This document shows positions 4,876 to 26,096 of a DNA stretch of 28,957 bases, piece by piece; positions within the stretch are counted from its first letter, which is position 1, and every line of letters starts with the position of its first letter. The notes under the pieces are model-generated. The model was not told the DNA's origin, ran no database searches, and worked only from the letters and a program-made list of their open reading frames with translations. Source of the stretch: a virus; IMG/VR virus record IMGVR_UViG_3300042691_008275, positions 1 to 28,957 of that record; one strand, given 5' to 3'. The translations under genes and the position numbers were made by a program.

Positions 4876-5949
4876 TTAGGCGACTGCGCCGCCGAGGGTG
4901 TTGATGAGCACTCGGGACTCGTGGGTGATGACACCAAAGCCCCAGATTGCGTACCACGACAGACCGTGCTCACGGCCGAAGTCGATGACGCCACCGTCAC
5001 GGAGTTCCACCGGCAGAGCGATGGCCTGACCGAAGGCGTTGTCACCAATCATAATTGCGGAGTACGAGTTGCTGAGGACTGCGTCCTGCACGCCCGTGTT
5101 CGGGTTGGAGTCCACCTGACCGAGACCGGACTTGACCTGAGTGGTCTCGATGAAGACCACGTCGTACAGGCGACCGATTTCGCCGAGCATGAAGTTGCCC
5201 GGAGCGGCGTACTTGGTCACTTCGATGAACTCCGGCCAGTCACGCAGTGAACGAGCCTGAGCAGGGTTGACGAAGCACACGTAGGTGTCACCGAGGCGAG
5301 GGATGTTTTGGCCGGCGAGAATCTCGACTGCGTCCTTGATGGTTGCAGGTGAGAGGTATCCGGGAGCACCCGAGTTTCCTGCGGCGGCGTACTCGTAAGG
5401 AGCACGTGCACCACGGGTTGCGGGAGCGGTACGGCCGAACACGACATTCGGAGCAACTGCGGCACCACCACCGAACGGAACGCCCGGCTTGTAGAGGGTG
5501 TTGCGTGCTTGGATGTCCATGCTCTGTGCCATGTGGCGGCCGAGAAGACGAGAAGCAGATGCCATCACGTCGTCGAACGAAGCGTTCAGAAGGAGTTCGG
5601 TGACGGCGATTGCCTTGCCCTGCTCCTTGACGGTGATTTGAATCTGGCTAGCCGAGAGAGCCGAAGGCTCCATACGAACACCTTCGGTGAGTTCGGCACC
5701 AGCCGACTCGTTGACACCGAGGTTGGTGTAGCGCATGAAGTTGATGGTCAGACCGGGCATGACGCCGAGTTCGGTCTTCTTCACGGCGAACTGCTCAAAG
5801 CGAAGAACGGGCATCGCTTGGAACAGAATCTCCTTGGACCAGATTTGTTGAATTGCAGGGCTGAGATACGAGCCACCGTCGGTGTATCCGGTAGCGCTGG
5901 TGGCTCCGGCCGTGGTAACTGCTCCGCCGATAGGACCGGGAAGGGCCAT
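4876..5949 (-). CDS. Major capsid protein (N4-gp56 type HK97 fold)
   Basis: 357 residues, strong AGGAG before the ATG. The pattern of the N4-gp56 family is visible: N-terminal Gly/Ala/Thr-rich arm, SPAIQQIWSKEILFQAMPVL, GLTINFMRYTNLG, ELTEGV followed by QITVKEQGKAIAVTELLLNA. Later come GDTYVCFVNPAQARSLRDWP and YDVVFIETTQV, and a final domain SWYAIWGFGVITHESRVLIN. It forms the icosahedral shell. Codon use in this gene is the most GC-biased in the window, as expected for a highly expressed gene. Confidence 0.95.
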   Translation of the reverse strand: MALPGPIGGAVTTAGATSATGYTDGGSYLSPAIQQIWSKEILFQAMPVLRFEQFAVKKTELGVMPGLTINFMRYTNLGVNESAGAELTEGVRMEPSALSASQIQITVKEQGKAIAVTELLLNASFDDVMASASRLLGRHMAQSMDIQARNTLYKPGVPFGGGAAVAPNVVFGRTAPATRGARAPYEYAAAGNSGAPGYLSPATIKDAVEILAGQNIPRLGDTYVCFVNPAQARSLRDWPEFIEVTKYAAPGNFMLGEIGRLYDVVFIETTQVKSGLGQVDSNPNTGVQDAVLSNSYSAIMIGDNAFGQAIALPVELRDGGVIDFGREHGLSWYAIWGFGVITHESRVLINTLGGAVA

Positions 5950-5989: not shown

Positions 5990-6796
5990 CTAGAAACGGC
6001 CTCGTTGAGACCGTGCTCCCATGAGCCTGTCACGCATCTTTGCATACTGGTCCATCGGCATATTGCGGATGTCATCCGCAGTCAACGTCTGGTATTCCGT
6101 CTGAGTCTCCATTGGCCCAACGGGGGGCGCTGTAACCGGCGCTCCCCTCAGACGACCTTGGCTAGCCGCAGTCGCCTGCTGGATTGACTCAATAATAGCA
6201 GATGAACGCTCACGCAGTAGGGCGATGGATTGCTCGATTTCGTCTTCGCTGTTTCCGGCAATAAGGTCAAGGAGTTCCGGGATGATGTTCTCCTGCTCAG
6301 TCTGGATACGGCCGGTGCGATAGTGCTCGATTTCCTGAAGACGGCGCTCCTTCTCAAGGAGGGCTTCCTGTGCCTGACGCTGGGCTTCAATCTGCTCTAG
6401 ACGTCCCTGCCACTCCTGCTCAACCATGTTGAGGCGCTGATTGAATTCATCTTCTCGCTTCAAGAGAAGTTCTTTAGCACTCAGTTCGTCAACCTCACGC
6501 TGACGAAGAATTTCTGCTTCCTTGGAGGCACGCTCTTCGGCTTCCTTGCGGGCGGCCTCACGCTCTGCGGCAATGATGGACATCTGCTCTTCCATGCTCT
6601 TTACACGGAGGTCGGCTTCCTCAAGACGCTTGTACATCTTGTCCTTCTCCTGCTTTCGGATGGACTCAACGTCATCCTCAGTGAAGGTCTTGCCGGACAC
6701 TTTCTTCATTGCGTCTTCTACGAACTGCTCCACTTGTGGAGCATCCATAGGAACGCTGATGATGTCCCCTTCGGGGACGGGGTTGTTCTTTGCCAT
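5990..6796 (-). CDS. Scaffolding protein
   Basis: 268 residues, highly charged. About 40-175 is one long coiled coil rich in Glu, Arg, Lys and Gln (EADLRVKSMEEQMSIIAAER, EQEWQGRLEQIEAQRQAQEA). The C-terminus (MDQYAKMRDRLMGARSQRGR) is basic, the usual capsid-binding helix-turn-helix of scaffolds. It lies between portal and capsid genes. It would form the inner core that directs procapsid assembly and then leaves or is degraded. AAGGT precedes the ATG by seven bases. Confidence 0.9.
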   Translation of the reverse strand: MAKNNPVPEGDIISVPMDAPQVEQFVEDAMKKVSGKTFTEDDVESIRKQEKDKMYKRLEEADLRVKSMEEQMSIIAAEREAARKEAEERASKEAEILRQREVDELSAKELLLKREDEFNQRLNMVEQEWQGRLEQIEAQRQAQEALLEKERRLQEIEHYRTGRIQTEQENIIPELLDLIAGNSEDEIEQSIALLRERSSAIIESIQQATAASQGRLRGAPVTAPPVGPMETQTEYQTLTADDIRNMPMDQYAKMRDRLMGARSQRGRF

Positions 6797-6850: not shown

Positions 6851-8539
6851 TTATTCTTCATCAGGAACACGGCGCTGGGCGAACCTAGCACCATATGCCT
6901 TGGATACAAGTTGATTTACCATTTGCTCTTCCATTGGTGTTACTACCGGACCCGGTAGTGGTCCACCTTCGGAAGAACCTGTTGCTGTAGATACATTAGC
7001 ACCTCCAGCAGAAGCCATCTCGGGACCTCCCGGCCCCGGCATCATGCCCGTAGCAAGCATAACTGCTTGGCTGATTTGGGCACGGAGCATGTCAAGAGCG
7101 CCTTGGTCCATGGCGTCATCCTGCAATTCCTCAAAGATTTCGTCCATTTTTTCGTTCGGGAATTCCTCGCCAAGAGTCCTGAGGGCACCACGTTTAGATT
7201 CCAGACCAAGAGCCATCTTGGCTTGAACCTCATTGAGTTTGATAAGAACATCGACCGGAAGTGGTTCGGGCCAGTGCACCGTGGTCTTGTAGGTATTTGG
7301 GTCGCCCGGGTCAAGTTGGGTCATTTGGTCCCGCTCCGGCATGGCCGCCTGAGAGGGGTCATACATCAGGAGTTGTGGTTCAAAGACCGCCGCAGTGCGT
7401 ATGACAATTTCGTTGATGCGTTCAAGCCCTTTTGTAAAATGGACTTTCTTCATCATAAATCGGTTCATCATTGGCTGATACTGAATAGCCAAAGCAACAC
7501 CGGAAGTGTTGGATACAGGTTGGAATTGGCCAAGTGCAGTTTCGGGAACACCAGTAATTTCGTGCATAGTGCGCTTCAGAAACTGAATGTATTCAAGAGC
7601 GCCCGACATCTCACCACGGGATTCAAGGTTGAATACGCTGGCGTCCTTAGGCAGACCAGCCCACACCTTCTTTGGCCCACGTTCCAATTGGGAAGCCTTG
7701 GCTCCAGTGATGATGGTTACCGGGGCGGCGTGGTAGTTGATGATGTCTGAAACTTCAACCATCTTTTCGTTGAGTTCACGGTTTAGTGGGATGATGTCCC
7801 AGATGTCCGACTGTCCCCATGGAGAAGAAGAGATTGAAGTGTTTGGAATGTGTACTACCGGTATTGTTCCAATTGCATTGGGGTATTGGTCCACCAACTC
7901 GTCATTAATGAATTGTTGCACCATGTCGTCGGACAGGATTTCCGTGAATGTGTAAACCTGACGGGTGCCTTCTGGAGAGGTTCCCCAAAAACGGTATTTA
8001 AGTTTGAAACGAAGTAGACGGTCTCTGTCGTGTGGGTGATACTCGGGAAAGCAGTGTGCCGGGTTTAGTGGGATGATTCGTATTTTTCCTTCTTGAGGAA
8101 TACCCACAGAATCAACATAAGGCTCCTCGTAAGCCACCTTGACAAAACAATCTCCCGTAACAGACGCCAATTGACCCATTTCCCACAGAACATAATGCTT
8201 GGCGTTGTGGTCTTCCCACACTTTTGCCAAGAGGTGGGGAATGATGGCTGAGTTGGCTTCGGGGCAACGAAATTGAATTCCTTTACCAAAACAGAAGTTG
8301 GTGATGTAGTCCGACATTGTACGGACATAGTTCATGTAGAACTGGGACTCGCCCATTTCACGTCGATATGACCAGTGGTGGCCGAGGTACCAAGCCCATG
8401 CGGCCGAATAACGGTTCAGGCGTGGGCCGTGGACCTCAAACTCCTCGTCGGCGAGTTCGACAAGGCCGAGAGGTGAGATGGCGACAGTAAGGTCGCTGGA
8501 GGACGCTCGATATGATGGCGACCAGAAGTCAATGGCCAT
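6851..8539 (-). CDS. Portal protein (SPP1 gp6-like)
   Basis: 562 residues, usual portal size. Features are the aromatic N-terminal region, GDCFVKVAYEEPYVD, a crown/stem region with LNRELNEKMVEVSDIINYHA, and the conserved ITGVPETALGQFQPVSNTSG segment followed by the long helix with QPMMNRFMMKK. The C-terminus is Gly/Pro/Met-rich and flexible. The dodecameric portal is the DNA channel at one capsid vertex and the docking site for terminase. Gene order portal-scaffold-capsid confirms it. The upstream signal is ambiguous: TAAGGT lies 7 bases before ATG 8539. Confidence 0.93.
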   Translation of the reverse strand: MAIDFWSPSYRASSSDLTVAISPLGLVELADEEFEVHGPRLNRYSAAWAWYLGHHWSYRREMGESQFYMNYVRTMSDYITNFCFGKGIQFRCPEANSAIIPHLLAKVWEDHNAKHYVLWEMGQLASVTGDCFVKVAYEEPYVDSVGIPQEGKIRIIPLNPAHCFPEYHPHDRDRLLRFKLKYRFWGTSPEGTRQVYTFTEILSDDMVQQFINDELVDQYPNAIGTIPVVHIPNTSISSSPWGQSDIWDIIPLNRELNEKMVEVSDIINYHAAPVTIITGAKASQLERGPKKVWAGLPKDASVFNLESRGEMSGALEYIQFLKRTMHEITGVPETALGQFQPVSNTSGVALAIQYQPMMNRFMMKKVHFTKGLERINEIVIRTAAVFEPQLLMYDPSQAAMPERDQMTQLDPGDPNTYKTTVHWPEPLPVDVLIKLNEVQAKMALGLESKRGALRTLGEEFPNEKMDEIFEELQDDAMDQGALDMLRAQISQAVMLATGMMPGPGGPEMASAGGANVSTATGSSEGGPLPGPVVTPMEEQMVNQLVSKAYGARFAQRRVPDEE

Positions 8540-8560
8540 GTATTAGACCTTACTACAGTT

Positions 8561-8881
8561 TTACTTGGCGGACTTTGCGGCGGCCTTCTTGGCAGGGGCC
8601 TTCTTCTTAGCAACCTTCGGGGCTTCGGCCTTCTTTTCCTCGACAACCTTGGCGACCTCTAGGGCGACCTTTGGGGCCTCCTTGGCGGCCTTGGCTAGGA
8701 ATGAAGCAACCTTAGGGTCACCAATCTTGGTGCTGAGGTATGCCAAAACCGTGGTCACACTGGTGATGACAACGGCTTGTGCCTCAGCATCGATATTCAA
8801 CTTGACTAGAACGTAGGCGACTGCGCCGAGAACAGCGCCCTTGATTGTCTGGTCAGCAATTTGAGAGTTCTTTAGGGACAT
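8561..8881 (-). CDS. Membrane protein with histone-H1-like Lys/Ala tail
   Basis: 106 residues. Two hydrophobic segments (IKGAVLGAVAYVLVKL and AQAVVITSVTTVLAYLS) are separated by NIDAE. They are followed by an amphipathic helix and a strongly basic low-complexity tail (KKKAPAKKAAAKSAK), much like histone H1 or mycobacterial HupB tails. It may be a two-helix holin with a basic cytoplasmic tail, or a protein that links DNA or the prohead to the membrane. It sits directly before portal under a putative leaderless promoter. Confidence 0.75.
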   Translation of the reverse strand: MSLKNSQIADQTIKGAVLGAVAYVLVKLNIDAEAQAVVITSVTTVLAYLSTKIGDPKVASFLAKAAKEAPKVALEVAKVVEEKKAEAPKVAKKKAPAKKAAAKSAK

Positions 8882-8887
8882 GGTTCA

Positions 8888-8893
8888 ATTGTA
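8888..8893 (-). promoter_or_regulatory. Putative leaderless promoter -10 (TACAAT)
   Basis: TACAAT ends 6 bases before ATG 8881 and directly follows the TAG of the Ntn hydrolase gene. There is no Shine-Dalgarno sequence. It would start the head-gene transcript (membrane protein, portal, scaffold, capsid). Confidence 0.6.
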
Positions 8894-9511
8894 CTATCTC
8901 TTGCTAGTTCTTTCCTGAACCAATGATTGAAATGGGGACCCGGTGTACGGGTCAAACTTGCTGGCAACGGTAAGCGCTTTTATGGCAATTGTTTTAGCCT
9001 GCTGTGGGCTGAGTTTCTTAGTCCCAATCAAAGACTGCAACGCCCCTAAGGCATATGATGACCCGGTTCCTACGGCGTAGACCCCACTGCTGTCGGATGT
9101 CCACCCATAATCCCCCTCAATTACGTAAATAGTTCCATGGATAACCACCATGATGGATGACCCTTGTTCAGCCACCAGACCACCTATTTCTTTGTTTTGA
9201 ACGGCATACCCCTGTTCTTCAAAACAGGACCGGAGGGACGGAATGAATTGCCGAGTTACAAACTGGTCGAGTTTCTTTCCGTAGTAATTGGCAGGTGGGG
9301 TTGGTGGGGTAAAGGCATGGTGAAGGATGTTGATAGCCCTCACATCACCGGCGGCTCCTAGAATGTATTTACCATTTGTGGCAACCTTTGATTGCCCGGC
9401 ACCTAGGGTTGTTACTTGAAACGCAAACCCATCGTCATCAACAGATGAGATACGAGAGTCAGTGCAAATGACGGCGTATGTGTCCCCTTGAATGCCTACA
9501 ATGGTTGTCAC
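8894..9511 (-). CDS. Proteasome-beta/HslV-like Ntn hydrolase
   Basis: 205 residues. The protein starts M-T-T-I-V-G, so removal of Met leaves an N-terminal Thr. Counting from it, Asp17 and Arg19 (C-T-D-S-R) fall exactly as in proteasome beta subunits and HslV. A Lys equivalent to Lys33 is probably K42 in SKVATNGKYILGAAGD, after a loop some eight residues longer. The later YAVGTGSSYALGAL resembles the conserved glycine/serine segment of the family. These are self-compartmentalising proteases or amidohydrolases. It lies just before portal, scaffold and capsid, so prohead maturation is one possible role, though not shown. GTG start six bases after the previous stop. No regulatory ATPase is visible. 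Confidence 0.75.
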   Translation of the reverse strand: MTTIVGIQGDTYAVICTDSRISSVDDDGFAFQVTTLGAGQSKVATNGKYILGAAGDVRAINILHHAFTPPTPPANYYGKKLDQFVTRQFIPSLRSCFEEQGYAVQNKEIGGLVAEQGSSIMVVIHGTIYVIEGDYGWTSDSSGVYAVGTGSSYALGALQSLIGTKKLSPQQAKTIAIKALTVASKFDPYTGSPFQSLVQERTSKR

Positions 9512-9517
9512 GGCAAC

Positions 9518-10660
9518 TTAACCGCCCATTACTTTGCCCCGGTAATACATGGTCCCATCGTGGATAGGAAGCATTTCCGGGTGGAAGGGGCCGTCCCCTT
9601 CTTGATAGTGGATAATCCCGAGACCTTGTTGCCAGTCCTCTACACAGGTAATGGGGCGGCCATCAAGGTCAGTACCACCTTTGGTGGAAGGGACAGCGCC
9701 ATCAACTCGTGCCAAGCACCCAAATGAGATGGCGGCGATGGTCTTAGGCCCATCCCAGTCATTACGAGTACGTTCGGCCCACTCACGACGATGGATATGG
9801 CCGTACACAACAGATGCCTTTTCAGTGGCGAGGTATTTGTGAGCCGTGGAGCCATTCGATGCTACCTTTGTTCCGTGAATAATTTTGATGCGATTGTTCA
9901 ACCAGAACTGGCTTGCTGGGTATCCGGGAAGATACTCCACCCCAAAATCATCAAAGCGGCACAGGAATGGGATGGACAGAACGGGCCACGAGTCGGGCGT
10001 ATTTCCTTGGCGAAGACCGAACGATGCCTTGGCATTATCCAAAATGTAGTTGGTCAGACGGGCTTCATGGTTGCCTTCCAGCCAGATGATTTTGGCTTCT
10101 GGGGCCGCATCTCTGATGCGTGCGCAGAGCGTGGTCAAGTAATCGATAGTCGCTTGCGTCGTAAGTGCGAACGCTGGAGTCAATCGGTACTTACCAAACT
10201 CGGGGAAGTCTGCGTTATCACCGTTAAGGGCGACTACATCTGGCTTTTCTGCTTTGATGACCGAGATGGCAAAGTCAATTGCAACTGGGTCGTGCGTCGA
10301 CACAAGTTCCCCTGAAACTCCTCGGAAGAAACCGGCTTGAATGTCCGGAAGAATTACGCACTTTTTCCACATACTTGTGGATGACTTGACTGACGTCTTT
10401 GGAAGTTTGATTGCCGGACCTTGGTGAACTGCGCTCCACTCAGGACCTTCTGCCCACTTAGGAGAGAATTGAATTGCAGAGAGGTCGTGAATTGTTGCTT
10501 CACCCTCTTTGTCTTTTGTCAGTGACTGGTACAAAGAGACCCGTTTTACTGAGCCAATTTCGTTTACGTCAATATTCTGACGTTCAAGAATGTCGAGAAG
10601 TTTTCCTAGTGCCTGCGCTTTGTTAGCCGGCTTGTCTAAGTCATTCAGTAGTTCGCTCAC
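9518..10660 (-). CDS. Calcineurin-like metallophosphoesterase
   Basis: 380 residues, GTG 10660 with AAGGAG seven bases upstream. The binuclear metal site motifs are in order: D106-x-Q108 (the usual DxH has Gln here), G147-D148-xx-D151, G196-N197-H198-E199, H262 in IIHGT, and G287-H288-x-H290. These enzymes hydrolyse phosphoesters in nucleotides, nucleic acids or phosphoproteins. The N-terminal 100 residues are a separate helical extension beginning SELLNDLDKP. The nearby HTH gene suggests a nucleic-acid role. Q for H at motif I occurs in other phage phosphoesterases and may tune the metal or substrate preference. Confidence 0.88.
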   Translation of the reverse strand: MSELLNDLDKPANKAQALGKLLDILERQNIDVNEIGSVKRVSLYQSLTKDKEGEATIHDLSAIQFSPKWAEGPEWSAVHQGPAIKLPKTSVKSSTSMWKKCVILPDIQAGFFRGVSGELVSTHDPVAIDFAISVIKAEKPDVVALNGDNADFPEFGKYRLTPAFALTTQATIDYLTTLCARIRDAAPEAKIIWLEGNHEARLTNYILDNAKASFGLRQGNTPDSWPVLSIPFLCRFDDFGVEYLPGYPASQFWLNNRIKIIHGTKVASNGSTAHKYLATEKASVVYGHIHRREWAERTRNDWDGPKTIAAISFGCLARVDGAVPSTKGGTDLDGRPITCVEDWQQGLGIIHYQEGDGPFHPEMLPIHDGTMYYRGKVMGG

Positions 10661-10934
10661 AGGGGCACTCCTTATTTACATGTCGTTGTACGGTTGAGAC
10701 ACTGATGTTGTATCCGTTCTTCCTAAGAATACGAGTCAACCAACTAGCACTGTAGGACTTGGAACGACCTTGTCCGGTGTCTAGTCGGATACGCTCGACA
10801 GCACGGTCAACTTCCGCACTCTCTTCGTTATCCATTGCATCCTTGATGATGTTGAGTTTGCACGGGCCGCCTATGTAGTCCGGTCGTGGCTTTTCCAAAT
10901 CATCGAGTAGCGTGCTTCTCTTCTTTTCTGCCAC
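10641..10934 (-). CDS. Helix-turn-helix DNA-binding protein
   Basis: 97 residues, GTG start with GGAGG four bases upstream. About residues 58-86 read as an HTH: YSASWLTRILRKNGYNISVS then TVQRHVNKECPC, where the second helix ends in a recognition-helix-like STVQRHV. The N-terminus (STLLDDLEKP) closely resembles that of the next protein (SELLNDLDKP). Small HTH proteins just before structural genes are often terminase small subunits or regulators; either could apply here. The 3' end overlaps the phosphoesterase gene by 20 bases. Confidence 0.75.
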   Translation of the reverse strand: MAEKKRSTLLDDLEKPRPDYIGGPCKLNIIKDAMDNEESAEVDRAVERIRLDTGQGRSKSYSASWLTRILRKNGYNISVSTVQRHVNKECPCERTTE

Positions 10935-10954
10935 GCATCCTCCAACGCTCTCAA

Positions 10955-10968
10955 GAGGTCATAACCTC
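10955..10968 (-). repeat. Hairpin/operator-like inverted repeat (GAGGT stem)
   Basis: GAGGT-TATG-ACCTC on the minus strand, 21 bases before the GTG at 10934 and just upstream of its GGAGG ribosome site. It is well placed for autoregulation by the HTH protein, at the DNA or RNA level. Confidence 0.45.
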
Positions 10969-10981
10969 GTGATGAATCTTA

Positions 10982-10999
10982 GCACGAACCTACTCGTGC
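10982..10999 (-). repeat. Hairpin (GCACGA stem) before HTH gene
   Basis: A perfect 6-base stem with a 6-base loop (GCACGA-GTAGGT-TCGTGC on the minus strand) lies in the 75-base gap between the holin-like and HTH genes. There is no T-run, so it is not a classical terminator. It could be an RNA processing site or protein-binding site. Confidence 0.5.
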
Positions 11000-11009
11000 A
11001 CTGGAGATG

Positions 11010-11222
11010 TTACTTCTTCTCTAGATGCCAGTCAATGTGGTCATCGAGCCTGTCAGAAACTTTTTCTACAGTTTTTTGGACTTTATTCAACTTCAACATG
11101 ACGACCCCATGGTCTGCCCTGTTTTCACGACGCAGTGCCCGGAACTCTTTAACAGCGACGCCAATCAAACTGCCGACGGTTCCAATAACAGCAACAATGA
11201 TTGAGGCTACTGCTGGGTCCAT
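11010..11222 (-). CDS. Holin-like single-TM protein with coiled-coil tail
   Basis: 70 residues. One N-terminal membrane helix (PAVASIIVAVIGTVGSLIGV) is followed by a charged coiled-coil region (LKLNKVQKTVEKVSDRLDDH) and ends IDWHLEKK. This layout matches the DUF2746-type small membrane proteins of actinophages, often listed as putative holins. It lies far from the endolysin, so holin function is a guess. ATG 11222 follows the previous stop by two bases. Confidence 0.65.
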   Translation of the reverse strand: MDPAVASIIVAVIGTVGSLIGVAVKEFRALRRENRADHGVVMLKLNKVQKTVEKVSDRLDDHIDWHLEKK

Positions 11223-11224
11223 AT

Positions 11225-12268
11225 TTAACGACCATGCCCCATGTCAAAGTGACCACGACGTCCGATGGTCACGGGGGTCTCAACAGCGTCCACCGGGCGG
11301 ATGAACCCAGTCTCATCAAACACACCACGAGTACCATTTTGAACAATTGGCTTTACTCGCAGGGCAACAATTCCACCAATTTTTTGGTCTAGGTGGCGCA
11401 TGTCGTGCAAGTCGCCAGCGTTCTGGCCACCTTCTTTTACAACAGGTAATTCAATGGAACGACCCTGTCGGTCTCCTAGGCGCATGGTGTCCGGAACCGG
11501 GTCTCCCTTTTTCATGTTAAACGGGACAGCCACGTTCCGTCCTGTTGAAGTAATTTGCTCGATACGAGGGACGGTGGTGTGTTCCGTCACGCTATGAATC
11601 CAGTGGTAATTCTCGTACGGATTCGGGTCTTCCTCATCCACCACGTCTCCGGTATTGAACTTGGTGTATTCGTTAAATTGAGTATTTGGACGACTACCAA
11701 TAATCAACATACCGGACGGCAAACGGTGCCAACCAATGTCAGACGTACCGTTAAGACGCATAACTGGGATTCGTCCCTCATTGATAGCCGTCTTTTCACG
11801 TCGACCAATCTCAGCATGTAGAGCACCAAGAAACTTGGCAGGCTCGTTCCATGCAAACGCTGTGCGGGCCTGCTTGGCAACTTCACCACTGGCCAGACCC
11901 AATTGTCCTGACTTTGCTAGACAGGCGTTAGTGCATCCTTTGGTGTTGCTACCACAGGTGTTGCATCCGGGAATGCCTGCGGCGGCGGCAGGTTGCTGAT
12001 AAGACACCCATTGGCGAGAACCCAAGACACGGTCAACACCGGATTCATCGTTGTGCTCAATTTTTGTACTAGAACCAAGAAGTCTAGGGTTTTGCCCACC
12101 ACGAACCTCACGGCCGGCCTTGGTCATACCAATGGTGTCCCGAGAGATTTGGCTAAAGGTTGTCATAGCCTCTTTCAGGCCCGCTCCGGTTGAGTACCTC
12201 TCGACCTCTTCCGGCGTGACTTCCGCCAGACGAGCCTCCATTGATGAAATTCCCTTACGACGTGCCAT
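11225..12268 (-). CDS. Gp88-like cysteine-cluster protein
   Basis: 347 residues. A cysteine cluster C102-x2-C105-x6-C112-x3-C116 (GCNTCGSNTKGCTNACL) could hold an iron-sulfur cluster or zinc. It is followed by RIPVMRLNGTSDIGWHRLPS and by FNEYTKF. The order Cys cluster, RxNGxSD, YTK is the pattern I associate with the mycobacteriophage gene-88 (GP88) family, which is widespread in actinophages and has no settled biochemical function. The N-terminal 95 residues are polar. The start is in a TAATG overlap, with AAGGAG 10 bases upstream. A redox or nucleic-acid-modifying enzyme is possible. Confidence 0.7.
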   Translation of the reverse strand: MARRKGISSMEARLAEVTPEEVERYSTGAGLKEAMTTFSQISRDTIGMTKAGREVRGGQNPRLLGSSTKIEHNDESGVDRVLGSRQWVSYQQPAAAAGIPGCNTCGSNTKGCTNACLAKSGQLGLASGEVAKQARTAFAWNEPAKFLGALHAEIGRREKTAINEGRIPVMRLNGTSDIGWHRLPSGMLIIGSRPNTQFNEYTKFNTGDVVDEEDPNPYENYHWIHSVTEHTTVPRIEQITSTGRNVAVPFNMKKGDPVPDTMRLGDRQGRSIELPVVKEGGQNAGDLHDMRHLDQKIGGIVALRVKPIVQNGTRGVFDETGFIRPVDAVETPVTIGRRGHFDMGHGR

Positions 12269-12708
12269 TACAGACTTGCTCCTTGGTCAGCATTATCTCT
12301 ATTAAATTTACGATATGCGGCAGAACCACGCATACGAAGGCGGTTGGGGTCCTGCGGGCGGGTTGGGCGACGCACGGCAGAAGACGGCATGCGGTTAATT
12401 TTGTTGGACTCAGGCTTAAACAGGTCCAAAGGGTCATCAAAGAACTGACCGTTACCGGCTAGGTTGCGGTGCATGTCAATACCACCCTTTGGTTCAACCA
12501 TTCTGGGAACAAGGGGATTGATGTAATTTGTGCCAAAATCCATGTAACGGTACGCTTGTTGGGATTCATGAAACATCGCCCGTCGGTTTACCCGCATCTG
12601 AGCGAAATTGTACATGGGCGCCCCGGCGTACACCGGAGCAATCGGAAATCCAGCGGTGCTGGTCGTGCCGCTGTCCGGTGAGGGGGCGCTAGTGTCTGCG
12701 CCCTCCAC
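12268..12708 (-). CDS. Hypothetical basic protein
   Basis: 146 residues from GTG 12708, two bases after the previous stop. The N-terminus is Ser/Thr/Pro-rich. The middle (NFAQMRVNRRAMFHESQQAY) is aromatic and basic, and the C-terminus (SSAVRRPTRPQDPNRLRMRG) is strongly Arg-rich and probably binds nucleic acid or a capsid surface. Its stop shares bases with the next start (TAATG). No family recognised. It and its upstream neighbour look like a pair of low-complexity structural or accessory proteins. Confidence 0.65.
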   Translation of the reverse strand: MEGADTSAPSPDSGTTSTAGFPIAPVYAGAPMYNFAQMRVNRRAMFHESQQAYRYMDFGTNYINPLVPRMVEPKGGIDMHRNLAGNGQFFDDPLDLFKPESNKINRMPSSAVRRPTRPQDPNRLRMRGSAAYRKFNRDNADQGASL

Positions 12709-12710
12709 GG

Positions 12711-13112
12711 TCAGTCGTAGACGACGGTCGGATTCGGACGGTTCATGTGGCCGCCCGTGTTGAACTCGTACTCAAACATCGGCATGCCATCACCGGCAAC
12801 CGAACCCTGCACGAACTCACGGAGAACGGCCGGAGCCTCAATCCAAGAGGCGGCACCCACATGGGCACGCTCTGCCATGGTCTGCTCGGGATACTTGTAG
12901 AACATCTCCGGATTGTTGTGATTCATACGAATCGGCGACGGAGCGGTGTCCATGTAGGCACCCTGAGCGAAGTCGTTGGGGACGTCGGTGTCAGTGGCAA
13001 TACCTTCTTCAAAGCGAAGCGGACCCTTGTTCATCGGAATGGACGGGGCGAACGAACGCTCAAAGACGGGCATTCCCTTTTCAGGGAACATGGGGGCGGG
13101 GGAAACGGGCAC
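12711..13112 (-). CDS. Hypothetical protein following terminase
   Basis: 133 residues from GTG 13112 with AAGGAG upstream. It is rich in Met, Pro and Phe, with short motifs such as GMPVFERSFAPSIPM and GMPMFEYEF at the two ends that look like an internal repeat. There is an ERAHVGAASWIEAPAVLREF helix in the middle. No membrane segment, cysteine or catalytic motif is visible. I do not recognise it. Confidence 0.65.
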   Translation of the reverse strand: MPVSPAPMFPEKGMPVFERSFAPSIPMNKGPLRFEEGIATDTDVPNDFAQGAYMDTAPSPIRMNHNNPEMFYKYPEQTMAERAHVGAASWIEAPAVLREFVQGSVAGDGMPMFEYEFNTGGHMNRPNPTVVYD

Positions 13113-13157
13113 GGGTACTCCTTATCGGGGGCGTGTGACTTTCTACAAGAATACCAT

Positions 13158-14720
13158 TTATCGGAAGAACGGGCTGTTGGACTCCTGTATGACAGGCATG
13201 GTGTCCATAACCGTCATTGCACAGGCAATGGCCAGACTGTCTGGATAGTCGTCAAAAGCGCCCTTTTCATCCGGTGCGGCCGCTAGTAGGTAAGGCCCCT
13301 TGTAAACCTTTTCAAGGTCTGACATTTGCTGATTGAACCTTTTCCACGTGCGGGTTCGACGAGCCTTGGAATGGCCCGGAATAATCAATTGGTCTCTTTG
13401 AATCAATTCCGTCAGATGAACCCACCGCTCATTTTGAGCCTTGGAATCAGACGACACTGGCAAAACCTCAATGTCTGGTAGCAACAAGGCTAAACGCTCT
13501 GCCACGGCACCACCGACGCCCTGTGAGTCCACACCGGCCCGGAGAATGTCGTAATGGCGCAGAAAGTCAATGATGTGGAAATATTGGGCTTCCCACTCCT
13601 CATTGTTAATTTCCAACCAGTTGAGTACACGGTGCTCATAGAAACCGAACGGGTCTGGGTGGTCCCAGTCGACCCAGCACACAGTAACCACAGTTGAGTC
13701 ATTGGCACGAGCCACGTCAATACCGGCAACACAAGGGGTACGCCACCACTCTTTGACAAGGGGCATAGAAGCGTCGTACATCCGGTCCAAACGCTCCTCA
13801 GTAACAAACATACCTTTTTCAAGGATGAATTTATTGCAGTACGACATTTGGAATTCATCGGAATCCTCACCAATACGCAATTTTTCTTTGGATATAAATT
13901 TTAAGTAGTTAGCGTTGTATTTGGATGCAATACGCCAGTCATACTCAAAATGAGCCTGTCGGAATCGGCGACCACCATTTGCCGACCGGCGTTTGTTGTA
14001 CTGAATCATCTTGTAGAAGTATGATTTGTACCGGTTAGCCGTTCCAGTGAGAACCATGGAACCATTATTGAATGCCAACATGGGGGCAATCGACTTGGTA
14101 ATCATGACTTCATCGGCTTCCTGAGCCTCGTCCACTAGAACCAAGTGGTAGGTCTTAGATTCAATCTTGGCTTTAGGGTTGCAAGTTTGCATACGGCACA
14201 ATGAGCCAGAGTTCTTTAGGGTGATAAGGCGGCCCCGACCACGAGTACCTCCACCGGTGGCCTTGTCATCAATCTCTGGGTCAAGCAAGAATTCAAGAGC
14301 GTGGTCGCTGGTCAACTTGGTGACAATACGACTAAACACAGTGTCGGCTTGTTCTTCGGTGGGTGCAAACGTACCAACCCAGAATCCCTTGGAGAACTTA
14401 TCCAACCACGTTGGATAAATGGGGGCCAACTTAGGAAGGATGACCATCATGCCAGCAATACAGGCAGACAGAACTTCTGATTTACCTGACTGGCGGGTGG
14501 CTACTACTGTCATCAGGTCACCATCACCAAGGATAGTTGACTCAATGATTCGATATGCAATAGGGACTTGATAAGGAAAGAACTCAACGTCACAGAACTC
14601 TTCCGTAAAGACAAGAATGCGTTTGACCAATTGGTCGACAAATTCGGCCGAAGTCTCGTCCAATTCTTCCGGGTCGCCAAAATCCTCTAGTTGTTCTAAC
14701 TGGTCTTCGTTGATGCTCAC
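13158..14720 (-). CDS. terL: Terminase large subunit (packaging ATPase/nuclease)
   Basis: 520 residues. Walker A is at 75-81 (TRQSGKS), and Walker B with the catalytic Glu at 193-198 (LVLVDE), followed by AQEAD. A coupling motif lies in VLTGTAN. The RNase H-like nuclease half has Asp residues in VAGIDVARANDST, AGVDSQGVGG and DDYPDSLAIA. This is the full motor that cuts concatemeric DNA and drives it into the prohead through the portal. GTG start in a GTGA overlap. Length is normal for the family. It lies 4.6 kb before portal, with accessory genes between, which is looser than the classic order. Confidence 0.97.
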   Translation of the reverse strand: MSINEDQLEQLEDFGDPEELDETSAEFVDQLVKRILVFTEEFCDVEFFPYQVPIAYRIIESTILGDGDLMTVVATRQSGKSEVLSACIAGMMVILPKLAPIYPTWLDKFSKGFWVGTFAPTEEQADTVFSRIVTKLTSDHALEFLLDPEIDDKATGGGTRGRGRLITLKNSGSLCRMQTCNPKAKIESKTYHLVLVDEAQEADEVMITKSIAPMLAFNNGSMVLTGTANRYKSYFYKMIQYNKRRSANGGRRFRQAHFEYDWRIASKYNANYLKFISKEKLRIGEDSDEFQMSYCNKFILEKGMFVTEERLDRMYDASMPLVKEWWRTPCVAGIDVARANDSTVVTVCWVDWDHPDPFGFYEHRVLNWLEINNEEWEAQYFHIIDFLRHYDILRAGVDSQGVGGAVAERLALLLPDIEVLPVSSDSKAQNERWVHLTELIQRDQLIIPGHSKARRTRTWKRFNQQMSDLEKVYKGPYLLAAAPDEKGAFDDYPDSLAIACAMTVMDTMPVIQESNSPFFR

Positions 14721-24851: not shown

Positions 24852-26096
24852 TTATGCCCTCCTGCGGGAATCTGAAGACTGAGAACCGCTGGATGACGAA
24901 ACAGAAACAGTTGGTGCTACAAATAATACACCAGTAGCGGCAATAATCACCTTTCGTTCACGCACCGTTACGTTCGACCCAACCGGTGTGTAACTGTCAA
25001 AACCCTCACCAAAAATGTTGACTGTGGCCTCAAACACTTTCTTGACATCTTCCGGCGCTTCTGACAGAGCCTCAGCAACGGCATTTTGTTGTTCCACAGT
25101 CAATGCCGCCATATTCAATTCTTCAAAGAAAGTTTCTAGTTCTTCGTCAGTTGCATCTTCAATTTGTGAAACAACGGCTTCTGCAATCTTTTCTGCCGGA
25201 AGGTCTTGCAAAGGATTGCTATCTGCTGGTATGGTCGTGGTTGATGCTGACACCGTGGTCGAAGTTGTTGTTGTGCTGGTACTGGTTGCGACGGAAGTGG
25301 TGGTCGACGGAATTTGGGTGGAGGTTGTCGTTCCGATTGGCAGAGGCACGCTGGTCGACGTACTCGTGGTTGTCGAAGAGGTTGTCGTCGTCGTCTCGGG
25401 TACGGAAGTGGTTGAGGAAGAGGTCGTCGTGGTGGGAGGCTGACTCGTGGTACTCGGAACAGCCGTGGTGGTAGTAGACGACGTGGTGGTAGTCGGAGCC
25501 TCAGTGGTAGTGGTCGTAGAAGACGTAGTAGTGGTCGGGATTACCGGCTCTGTCGTAAACGCCAGTTCTGGCACTAGTTCCCATCCGGACGTAGTCAACC
25601 AGTTGAGTTGAACCCACGCACCACCACCGTTCTCGTAGAACCACAGTGTGAAGGGGTAAGAAACCCCGGCCGTTACTTGTGTTGGGGCCGAAATGGAGCC
25701 ACCGCCGCCCTTGTCCCGCCAGTCGTTGATGACTAGTACATCATTGAAATACAGTTTCACACCGTCGTCGGCCGGGGCGTAGAAACTTAATTCCCCGGTT
25801 TCTTGTGGCGTAATGAAACCATCGTATTTGACAATGAAGTCTTCATACATGTTAAACAATGGGTTTGAATCAAAATCGTTGTAAACCTGCGATTGAATCA
25901 GTGTTCCAACTATTGGTCGGCCACTAACATCGGGAAGCGGCGGGGCGTTGTTGTACCAGTAGTTGTTGTAAACAGTAACTGTGACGCCGGACTGAACGGC
26001 CTTGGCAGGTTGTGGGATTAACACCAAAACCCATGTGGCTAGTGCTATGAGACGGGCAAAACGACGATTCCTACTCCGGAATGTCCACTTTTTCAG
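24852..26096 (-). CDS. Secreted PA14-domain surface protein with Thr-rich stalk
   Basis: The longest conventional frame starts at TTG 26027, but that cuts a signal peptide in half. Reading back to CTG 26096 gives a complete one: n-region KKWTFRSRNRRFAR, h-region LIALATWVLVLI, c-region ending AKA (cleavage after residue 33). CTG overlaps the upstream TGA (CTGA) and has AAGGA six bases before it. Residues about 34-180 form a PA14 domain (GFITPQETGELSFYAPADDG, then VLVINDW), a carbohydrate-binding beta-sandwich. About 185-290 is a Thr/Ser-rich mucin-like stalk. About 295-385 is an acidic helical domain, followed by a hydrophobic segment and RRR tail. Predicted to be exported and anchored on the infected cell, 414 aa. 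The receptor or glycan is unknown. Confidence 0.8.
   Translation of the reverse strand: MKKWTFRSRNRRFARLIALATWVLVLIPQPAKAVQSGVTVTVYNNYWYNNAPPLPDVSGRPIVGTLIQSQVYNDFDSNPLFNMYEDFIVKYDGFITPQETGELSFYAPADDGVKLYFNDVLVINDWRDKGGGGSISAPTQVTAGVSYPFTLWFYENGGGAWVQLNWLTTSGWELVPELAFTTEPVIPTTTTSSTTTTTEAPTTTTSSTTTTAVPSTTSQPPTTTTSSSTTSVPETTTTTSSTTTSTSTSVPLPIGTTTSTQIPSTTTSVATSTSTTTTSTTVSASTTTIPADSNPLQDLPAEKIAEAVVSQIEDATDEELETFFEELNMAALTVEQQNAVAEALSEAPEDVKKVFEATVNIFGEGFDSYTPVGSNVTVRERKVIIAATGVLFVAPTVSVSSSSGSQSSDSRRRA

Follow-up and report, generated by a model that had tools for sequence, protein, structure and literature searches.

What does a phage do with a protease of the proteasome/HslV type, and does such an enzyme serve head maturation when its gene lies among the head genes? 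The question is raised by one gene in the 28,957-nucleotide stretch of viral DNA analysed here (IMG/VR record IMGVR_UViG_3300042691_008275, positions 1 to 28,957; hereafter the window). A first-pass annotation had placed a proteasome-β/HslV-like Ntn hydrolase at 8894–9511, just before the portal-scaffold-capsid block, and had offered three roles for it: the maturation protease, a self-compartmentalised protease acting on the scaffold, or an anti-host enzyme that uses or mimics the actinobacterial proteasome. The coordinates hold; the strand, which had been left unstated, is minus, and one small gene intervenes between the protease and portal genes (Table 1).

The reading frame starts with a GTG codon at 9511–9509 and its stop is at 8894; the plus strand over this interval carries stops. 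All the structural genes surrounding the protease share its orientation, and the order of transcription is terminase large subunit, two small proteins, GP88-family protein, HTH-like protein, metallophosphoesterase, protease, Lys-rich protein, portal, scaffold and capsid. Because the gaps flanking the protease gene are only 6 nt (to the metallophosphoesterase) and 12 nt (to the Lys-rich gene), it is probably co-transcribed with its neighbours; in a promoter and terminator scan of 8400–13200, the promoter matches did not exceed chance. The Lys-rich gene is retained in relatives with and without the protease. Elsewhere in the window, positions 24852–26027 encode a PA14 domain and, after it, a long stretch of low complexity rich in Thr and Ser.

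Table 1. Features of the protease gene and its surroundings in the window, in order of transcription.
Feature	Position	Strand	Basis or remark
Terminase large subunit	13158..14720	minus	PHROG_2, E=2.3e-24
GP88-family gene	12268-11225	minus	
Small HTH-like gene	10934-10641	minus	
Metallophosphoesterase	9518..10660	minus	PF00149, PHROG_20266; directly upstream of the protease
Proteasome/HslV-like Ntn hydrolase CDS	8894..9511	minus	205 codons, GTG start; ORF, PF00227, PHROG_1040, AlphaFold2 model and PDB matches
Predicted catalytic Thr1 codon (residue 2; exposed by Met removal, no propeptide)	9506..9508	minus	Thr in 96/96 distinct homologues, invariant in the 38-row alignment
Asp17 codon (residue 18)	9458..9460	minus	Asp in 96/96
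Lys33-equivalent codon (residue 42)	9386..9388	minus	Lys in 96/96; assigned from an alignment of the sequence with HslV rather than from side-chain superposition
D-P-Y-T motif, Asp166/Ser169 equivalents (Asp187, Thr190)	8942..8953	minus	Asp and Thr in 96/96; aligns with the RDSYSG motif of beta-type subunits
Small Lys-rich protein between protease and portal, function unassigned	8561..8881	minus	No family match
Portal protein, SPP1 type	6851..8539	minus	PF05133, E=2.8e-29
Scaffold protein	5990..6796	minus	Position and make-up; its counterpart in syntenic Streptomyces phages is annotated as a scaffolding protein
Major capsid protein, N4-gp56 family	4876..5949	minus	TIGR04387, E=1.9e-35; PHROG_1357

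The protein is almost certainly a member of the proteasome/HslV superfamily of Ntn hydrolases, as had been proposed, and profile score, predicted fold and catalytic residues agree on this point. Its score with Pfam PF00227 (Proteasome) is 36.0 bits, above the curated cut-off of 22.4 (E=7.3e-9), and the whole chain is matched by PHROG_1040, named "peptidase HslV family" (E=2.2e-25). An AlphaFold2 model of the monomer, built from 38 homologues, reaches a pLDDT of 86.9 and a pTM of 0.84, with lower pLDDT (72–76) in segments 21–40 and 101–120, and shows the αββα sandwich of the Ntn hydrolases. Searched with Foldseek, the model gave 1064 PDB matches at E≤0.001, with HslV and BPH at the top. By VIA-align the top structure is BPH (5ovs), with a Z score of 20.1 and a root mean square deviation of 2.6 Å over 179 residues; archaeal and mycobacterial 20S β, HslV and Anbu follow at Z of about 18–19, with about 18 for HslV and 20S β, the two structures with which the first-pass annotation had suggested a comparison. 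A chance match is ruled out by profile, fold and conservation.

The active site appears complete. Methionine aminopeptidase removes an N-terminal Met that stands ahead of Thr. The protease starts with M-T-T and lacks a propeptide; removal of the Met would therefore expose Thr1 as the nucleophile with nothing further to cut, leaving a mature chain of 204 residues with the N-terminus TTIVGIQGDTYAVICTDSR, in which Thr is first and Asp17 and Arg19 fall where they had been claimed to be. Across 96 distinct homologues from the clade, all close to full length, we observed no change at Thr1, Thr2, Asp17, the Lys33 equivalent, the oxyanion-loop glycines (52 and 55) or the Asp166 and Gly170 equivalents, and a non-Thr nucleophile, which would have spoken against the assignment, was found in none of them. 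The Ser169 equivalent is Thr throughout, and residue 19 is Arg in 94 homologues and Gln in two. The gene is under strong purifying selection, with dN/dS of 0.035–0.061 (about 0.05) where dS, often saturated, is measurable.

Within the superfamily the protein lies apart from the HslV, PrcB and BPH groups. It does not reach the NCBIfam equivalog models for HslV (32.0 versus 137 bits and 29.7 versus 157.75 bits) or the model for the actinobacterial 20S β subunit PrcB (TIGR03690; 20.5 versus 191.9 bits), and its pairwise similarity to PrcB is weak. In a phylogenetic tree, which has some long, weak branches and which we use solely for separation from these three groups, it clusters with proteins of the phages DSL-LC01, Pumpernickel and Hum25 and stands apart from actinobacterial PrcB, HslV and BPH; the BPH sequences form a starred branch of their own. 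Capture of a host 20S β gene is ruled out by this tree.

Scans of viral contigs yielded 169 relatives at first and at least 472 in a second scan using the alignment. Clustering the neighbours of the first 80 loci gave five settings: A, the window's lineage, in the head region (17 loci); B, near genes for thymidylate synthase (ThyX), ribonucleotide reductase and a glycosyltransferase (29 loci); C, a metallophosphoesterase-protease pair (13 loci, 10 of which also have a WhiB-like gene); D, after exonuclease, DnaB-like helicase, primase and RusA genes (6 loci); and E, in large phages, after SSB and regulator genes (15 loci). Head genes adjoin the protease gene in setting A only, and isolated phages whose homologues are more distant also have it outside the head genes (beside ThyX in the Microbacterium phage Pumpernickel, as gp135, and near the genome end in the Arthrobacter phage Hum25, as gp81; likewise in D'Alembert and MTATph1). 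The window's own pair of metallophosphoesterase and protease genes recurs in lineage C, another phage type, which hints that the two move together.

The closest sequenced phage is DSL-LC01, whose protease is 48% identical and is followed by a WhiB gene. DSL-LC01 is a lake phage assigned to Actinomycetia (PMC10611076), and the main text of that paper does not mention the protease. Taken together with the two WhiB genes of L014, a 94.9-kb relative in the window's lineage, and with metallophosphoesterase relatives found mainly in actinophages, this kinship suggests that the host of the window's phage is probably a freshwater actinobacterium. The clade itself is mobile across at least five phage backgrounds, those of probable freshwater actinophages. 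One contig binned to a gammaproteobacterium (L085, JAURLY010000091.1) encodes a protease 50% identical to ours; the same bin has a WhiB gene on one contig, and L085 is probably a mis-binned actinophage contig.

We then have to ask whether the gene, where it does lie among head genes, is needed there. Portal relatives were fetched and the slot between the metallophosphoesterase and portal genes was inspected; it is visible in 75 rows, the window and near-copies included. The protease occupies it in 59 rows and is missing from 16, all of which hold the same unrelated 98-residue protein, the slot measuring 328–362 nt instead of 641–709 nt. On the portal tree this distribution requires four switches, at least three of them forced by well-supported branches. 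In the relatives without the protease, scaffold and capsid proteins are 71–82% and about 80–92% identical to those of the window, respectively, and neither their lengths nor their ends differ from those in relatives that carry the protease. A search for homologues in the whole contigs of three such relatives (70, 72 and 94.5 kb, other members of the lineage measuring 94–95 kb; contigs of the lineage are not known to be complete genomes) found none. The isolated Streptomyces phages BRock, LuckySocke, GiJojo and pSt2308 have capsid proteins 59–60% identical to the window's; their complete genomes contain neither a PF00227 match nor an S78 protease, and in BRock and LuckySocke the terminase, portal, scaffold and capsid genes stand in the window's order. 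Nor is protease identity strictly tied to the head genes: a relative whose portal is 89% identical (L165) has a protease only 56% identical, and the proteases of unrelated phages of lineages B–D reach 65–67%. From the swap, the absence in relatives with the same head and the uneven identities, we conclude that the gene is mobile and accessory, and dispensable for this head.

The 98-residue protein itself is very conserved (PHROG_25889, function unassigned; for example L160:7668-7964 and L178:8328-8624, with 14 more loci), and its gene and the protease gene look mutually exclusive in the slot. A structure model of it was uninformative (pLDDT 43).

A role in prohead maturation, through digestion of the scaffold or trimming of the capsid protein, was the natural reading of the gene's place between terminase and portal, and its presence in most lineage-A relatives and the lack of an S78 protease in the genomes tested speak for it; the first-pass annotation had noted no S78-type prohead protease in the window, and none was found in the window's relatives either, nor was ClpP found in the phages tested. 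We nevertheless regard that role as very improbable and reject it as the main reading. A prohead protease would be expected wherever its scaffold and capsid genes occur, and this gene is swapped out in 16 relatives with unaltered scaffold and capsid lengths and ends, is missing from whole genomes of isolated phages with a shared capsid and scaffold arrangement, and has most of its homologues far from head genes. In addition, about 28 residues precede the N4-gp56 match in the capsid protein, so that no delta-domain is visible there. Since 59 of the 75 visible slots (near-copies included) carry the gene beside the portal, the protease may still have a late or virion-related role.

We hypothesize instead, and consider it reasonably probable, that the gene encodes an accessory, propeptide-free, BPH-like chambered threonine protease for cytosolic host or phage proteins rather than for head maturation. 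Among the mechanisms that had been offered, a self-compartmentalised protease remains the best candidate. The monomer model has helices at 57–65 and 78–99, a loop at 100–120, and helices at 151–162 and 169–186 joined by a short connection; it lacks the C-terminal H5 and the two-helix S3/S4 insertion. Fuchs et al. (2021) equate the loop that follows H2 with the pore loop, of which BPH has a long and HslV a short version, and argue that H3–H4 insertions would hinder double rings (PMC8665760). With a long H2 loop and no hindering insertion, the monomer model is compatible with, and fits, BPH-like ring assembly. In this reading, host methionine aminopeptidase would activate each subunit without propeptide removal, subunits would stack, probably as a closed double ring of the HslV or BPH kind that encloses the active sites, and the longer loop after helix 2 would guard the pore. 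During infection the protease would act on peptides or on cytosolic proteins of either host or phage, whether these are unfolded or specifically recognised, and the purpose may be takeover, counter-defence or turnover. The gene would occupy a swappable slot beside the head genes with no necessary part in head maturation.

How substrates would enter such a chamber bears on the main rival, in which an active chambered protease works with a host AAA+ unfoldase (of the ClpX, ClpC or Mpa/ARC type) and so redirects the regulated proteolysis of the host. The HslV-like fold is in keeping with this, and since four lineage-A contigs of 94–95 kb (three bearing the protease, one without it) contain no match to PF07724 or PF00004, any partner would be supplied by the host. 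We nonetheless think it unlikely: the clade is not near PrcB or HslV in the tree, it misses the NCBIfam cut-offs for HslV and 20S β, and for BPH, the closest solved relative, whose pore loop is long, no unfoldase is known (PMC5777263, PMC8665760). The BPH precedent and the lack of AAA matches in the lineage's contigs together make action without an unfoldase, as proposed for BPH, our best guess. A different chemistry on the same fold, such as that of a peptide ligase or an amidase, is brought to mind by connectase, a proteasome relative that is a ligase (PMC8665760), and by about 8 more residues between Asp17 and the Lys33 equivalent than in HslV; we consider it quite improbable, given that the model lacks the two-helix S3/S4 insertion and that the active site, with its Asp166/Ser169-like pair, is of the protease type. 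Least credible to us is that the protein joins the actinobacterial 20S proteasome as a decoy or poison subunit, or mimics it. An actinobacterial host is probable, from the WhiB genes of L014 and the mainly actinophage kin of the metallophosphoesterase, but the tree sets the protein apart from PrcB, the pairwise similarity is weak, the PrcB propeptide is missing, and the full catalytic set, needless in a poison subunit, is kept. The earlier suggestion of a host-proteasome mimic thus finds no backing.

In the large phages of lineage E, a ThiF/E1-like gene (PF00899), a ubiquitin-like candidate and an AAA ATPase of roughly 535 residues cluster on the strand of the protease, about 9–14 kb upstream (L256:66-2813, L257, L258, L260). 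The ubiquitin-like candidate, read in L256 and L258, has 83–85 residues, the C-terminus RRAGEKG and no Pfam match. ThiF and AAA genes are present in all five large contigs examined, the ThiF match in one (G020) being weak and below the cut-off, and a 268-kb contig (G014) has two copies of the ThiF-AAA-protease stretch (C1:19574-32698 and 235162-252047), a duplication or a joined assembly. Large relatives also encode a ClpB-D2-like AAA protein of roughly 470 residues (L251:2570-3991; PF07724, E=1.4e-51; PHROG_4871; PF07724 matches in G013, G015 and G017), and no ClpP. The window's lineage is without the ThiF-ubiquitin-like-AAA cluster. One could imagine the protease as the core of a phage-encoded tagging-and-degradation pathway in lineage E, of which nothing but the chambered protease is kept in the window's lineage, where it would serve alone in takeover; we hold this to be highly improbable.

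These results remove a tempting but wrong annotation as a prohead protease. Proteasome-like proteins of phages have been listed, and our literature searches found no study of such an enzyme; the present clade is suited to asking what a virus does with a chambered protease, since it is a large one with at least 472 relatives, has an intact catalytic site, moves between phages and is held by strong purifying selection, and the swap with the 98-residue gene provides a natural comparison.

Two kinds of phage proteasome-like protein, PPH and AAH, were already known (Fuchs et al. 2021, PMC8665760). PPH is likewise a group I homologue borne by phages, but has about 140 residues and no helix H2 (PMC8665760), whereas the window's protein, with 204 residues and a helix spanning 78–99, is not a PPH. 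By its description, AAH is likewise of group I, compact, free of a propeptide and found in phages; Fuchs et al. report no Actinobacteria-specific phage with AAH (PMC8665760), whereas our clade resides in probable actinophages. A PHROG_1040 survey of 296 Actinomycetota genomes gave mostly PrcB-like matches and identified no AAH. HslV (ClpQ) shares the fold and catalytic residues and differs in profile score (30–32 bits versus 137–158); an AAA_2/HslU-type partner gene (PF07724) is missing from the four lineage-A contigs of roughly 94–95 kb, and the host may supply one. BPH of Thiobacillus denitrificans (5ovs/5ovt) is the best structural match; like our monomer model it has an extended loop behind helix 2, and no unfoldase is known to partner either protein. 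It is 23% identical, occupies a separate branch and is a chromosomal bacterial gene. Among PHROG_1040 members, the protein of DSL-LC01 (annotated "ATP-dependent protease subunit HslV") aligns over nearly its full length with Thr1 and Asp17 kept, and those of Pumpernickel and Hum25 (annotated "protease") are 27–32% identical, the window's clade having its own branch and its own loops. The window's protease is a further phage proteasome-like homologue, probably of group I and HslV/BPH-like in character, and if the clade proves to be AAH, it would extend AAH to actinophages.
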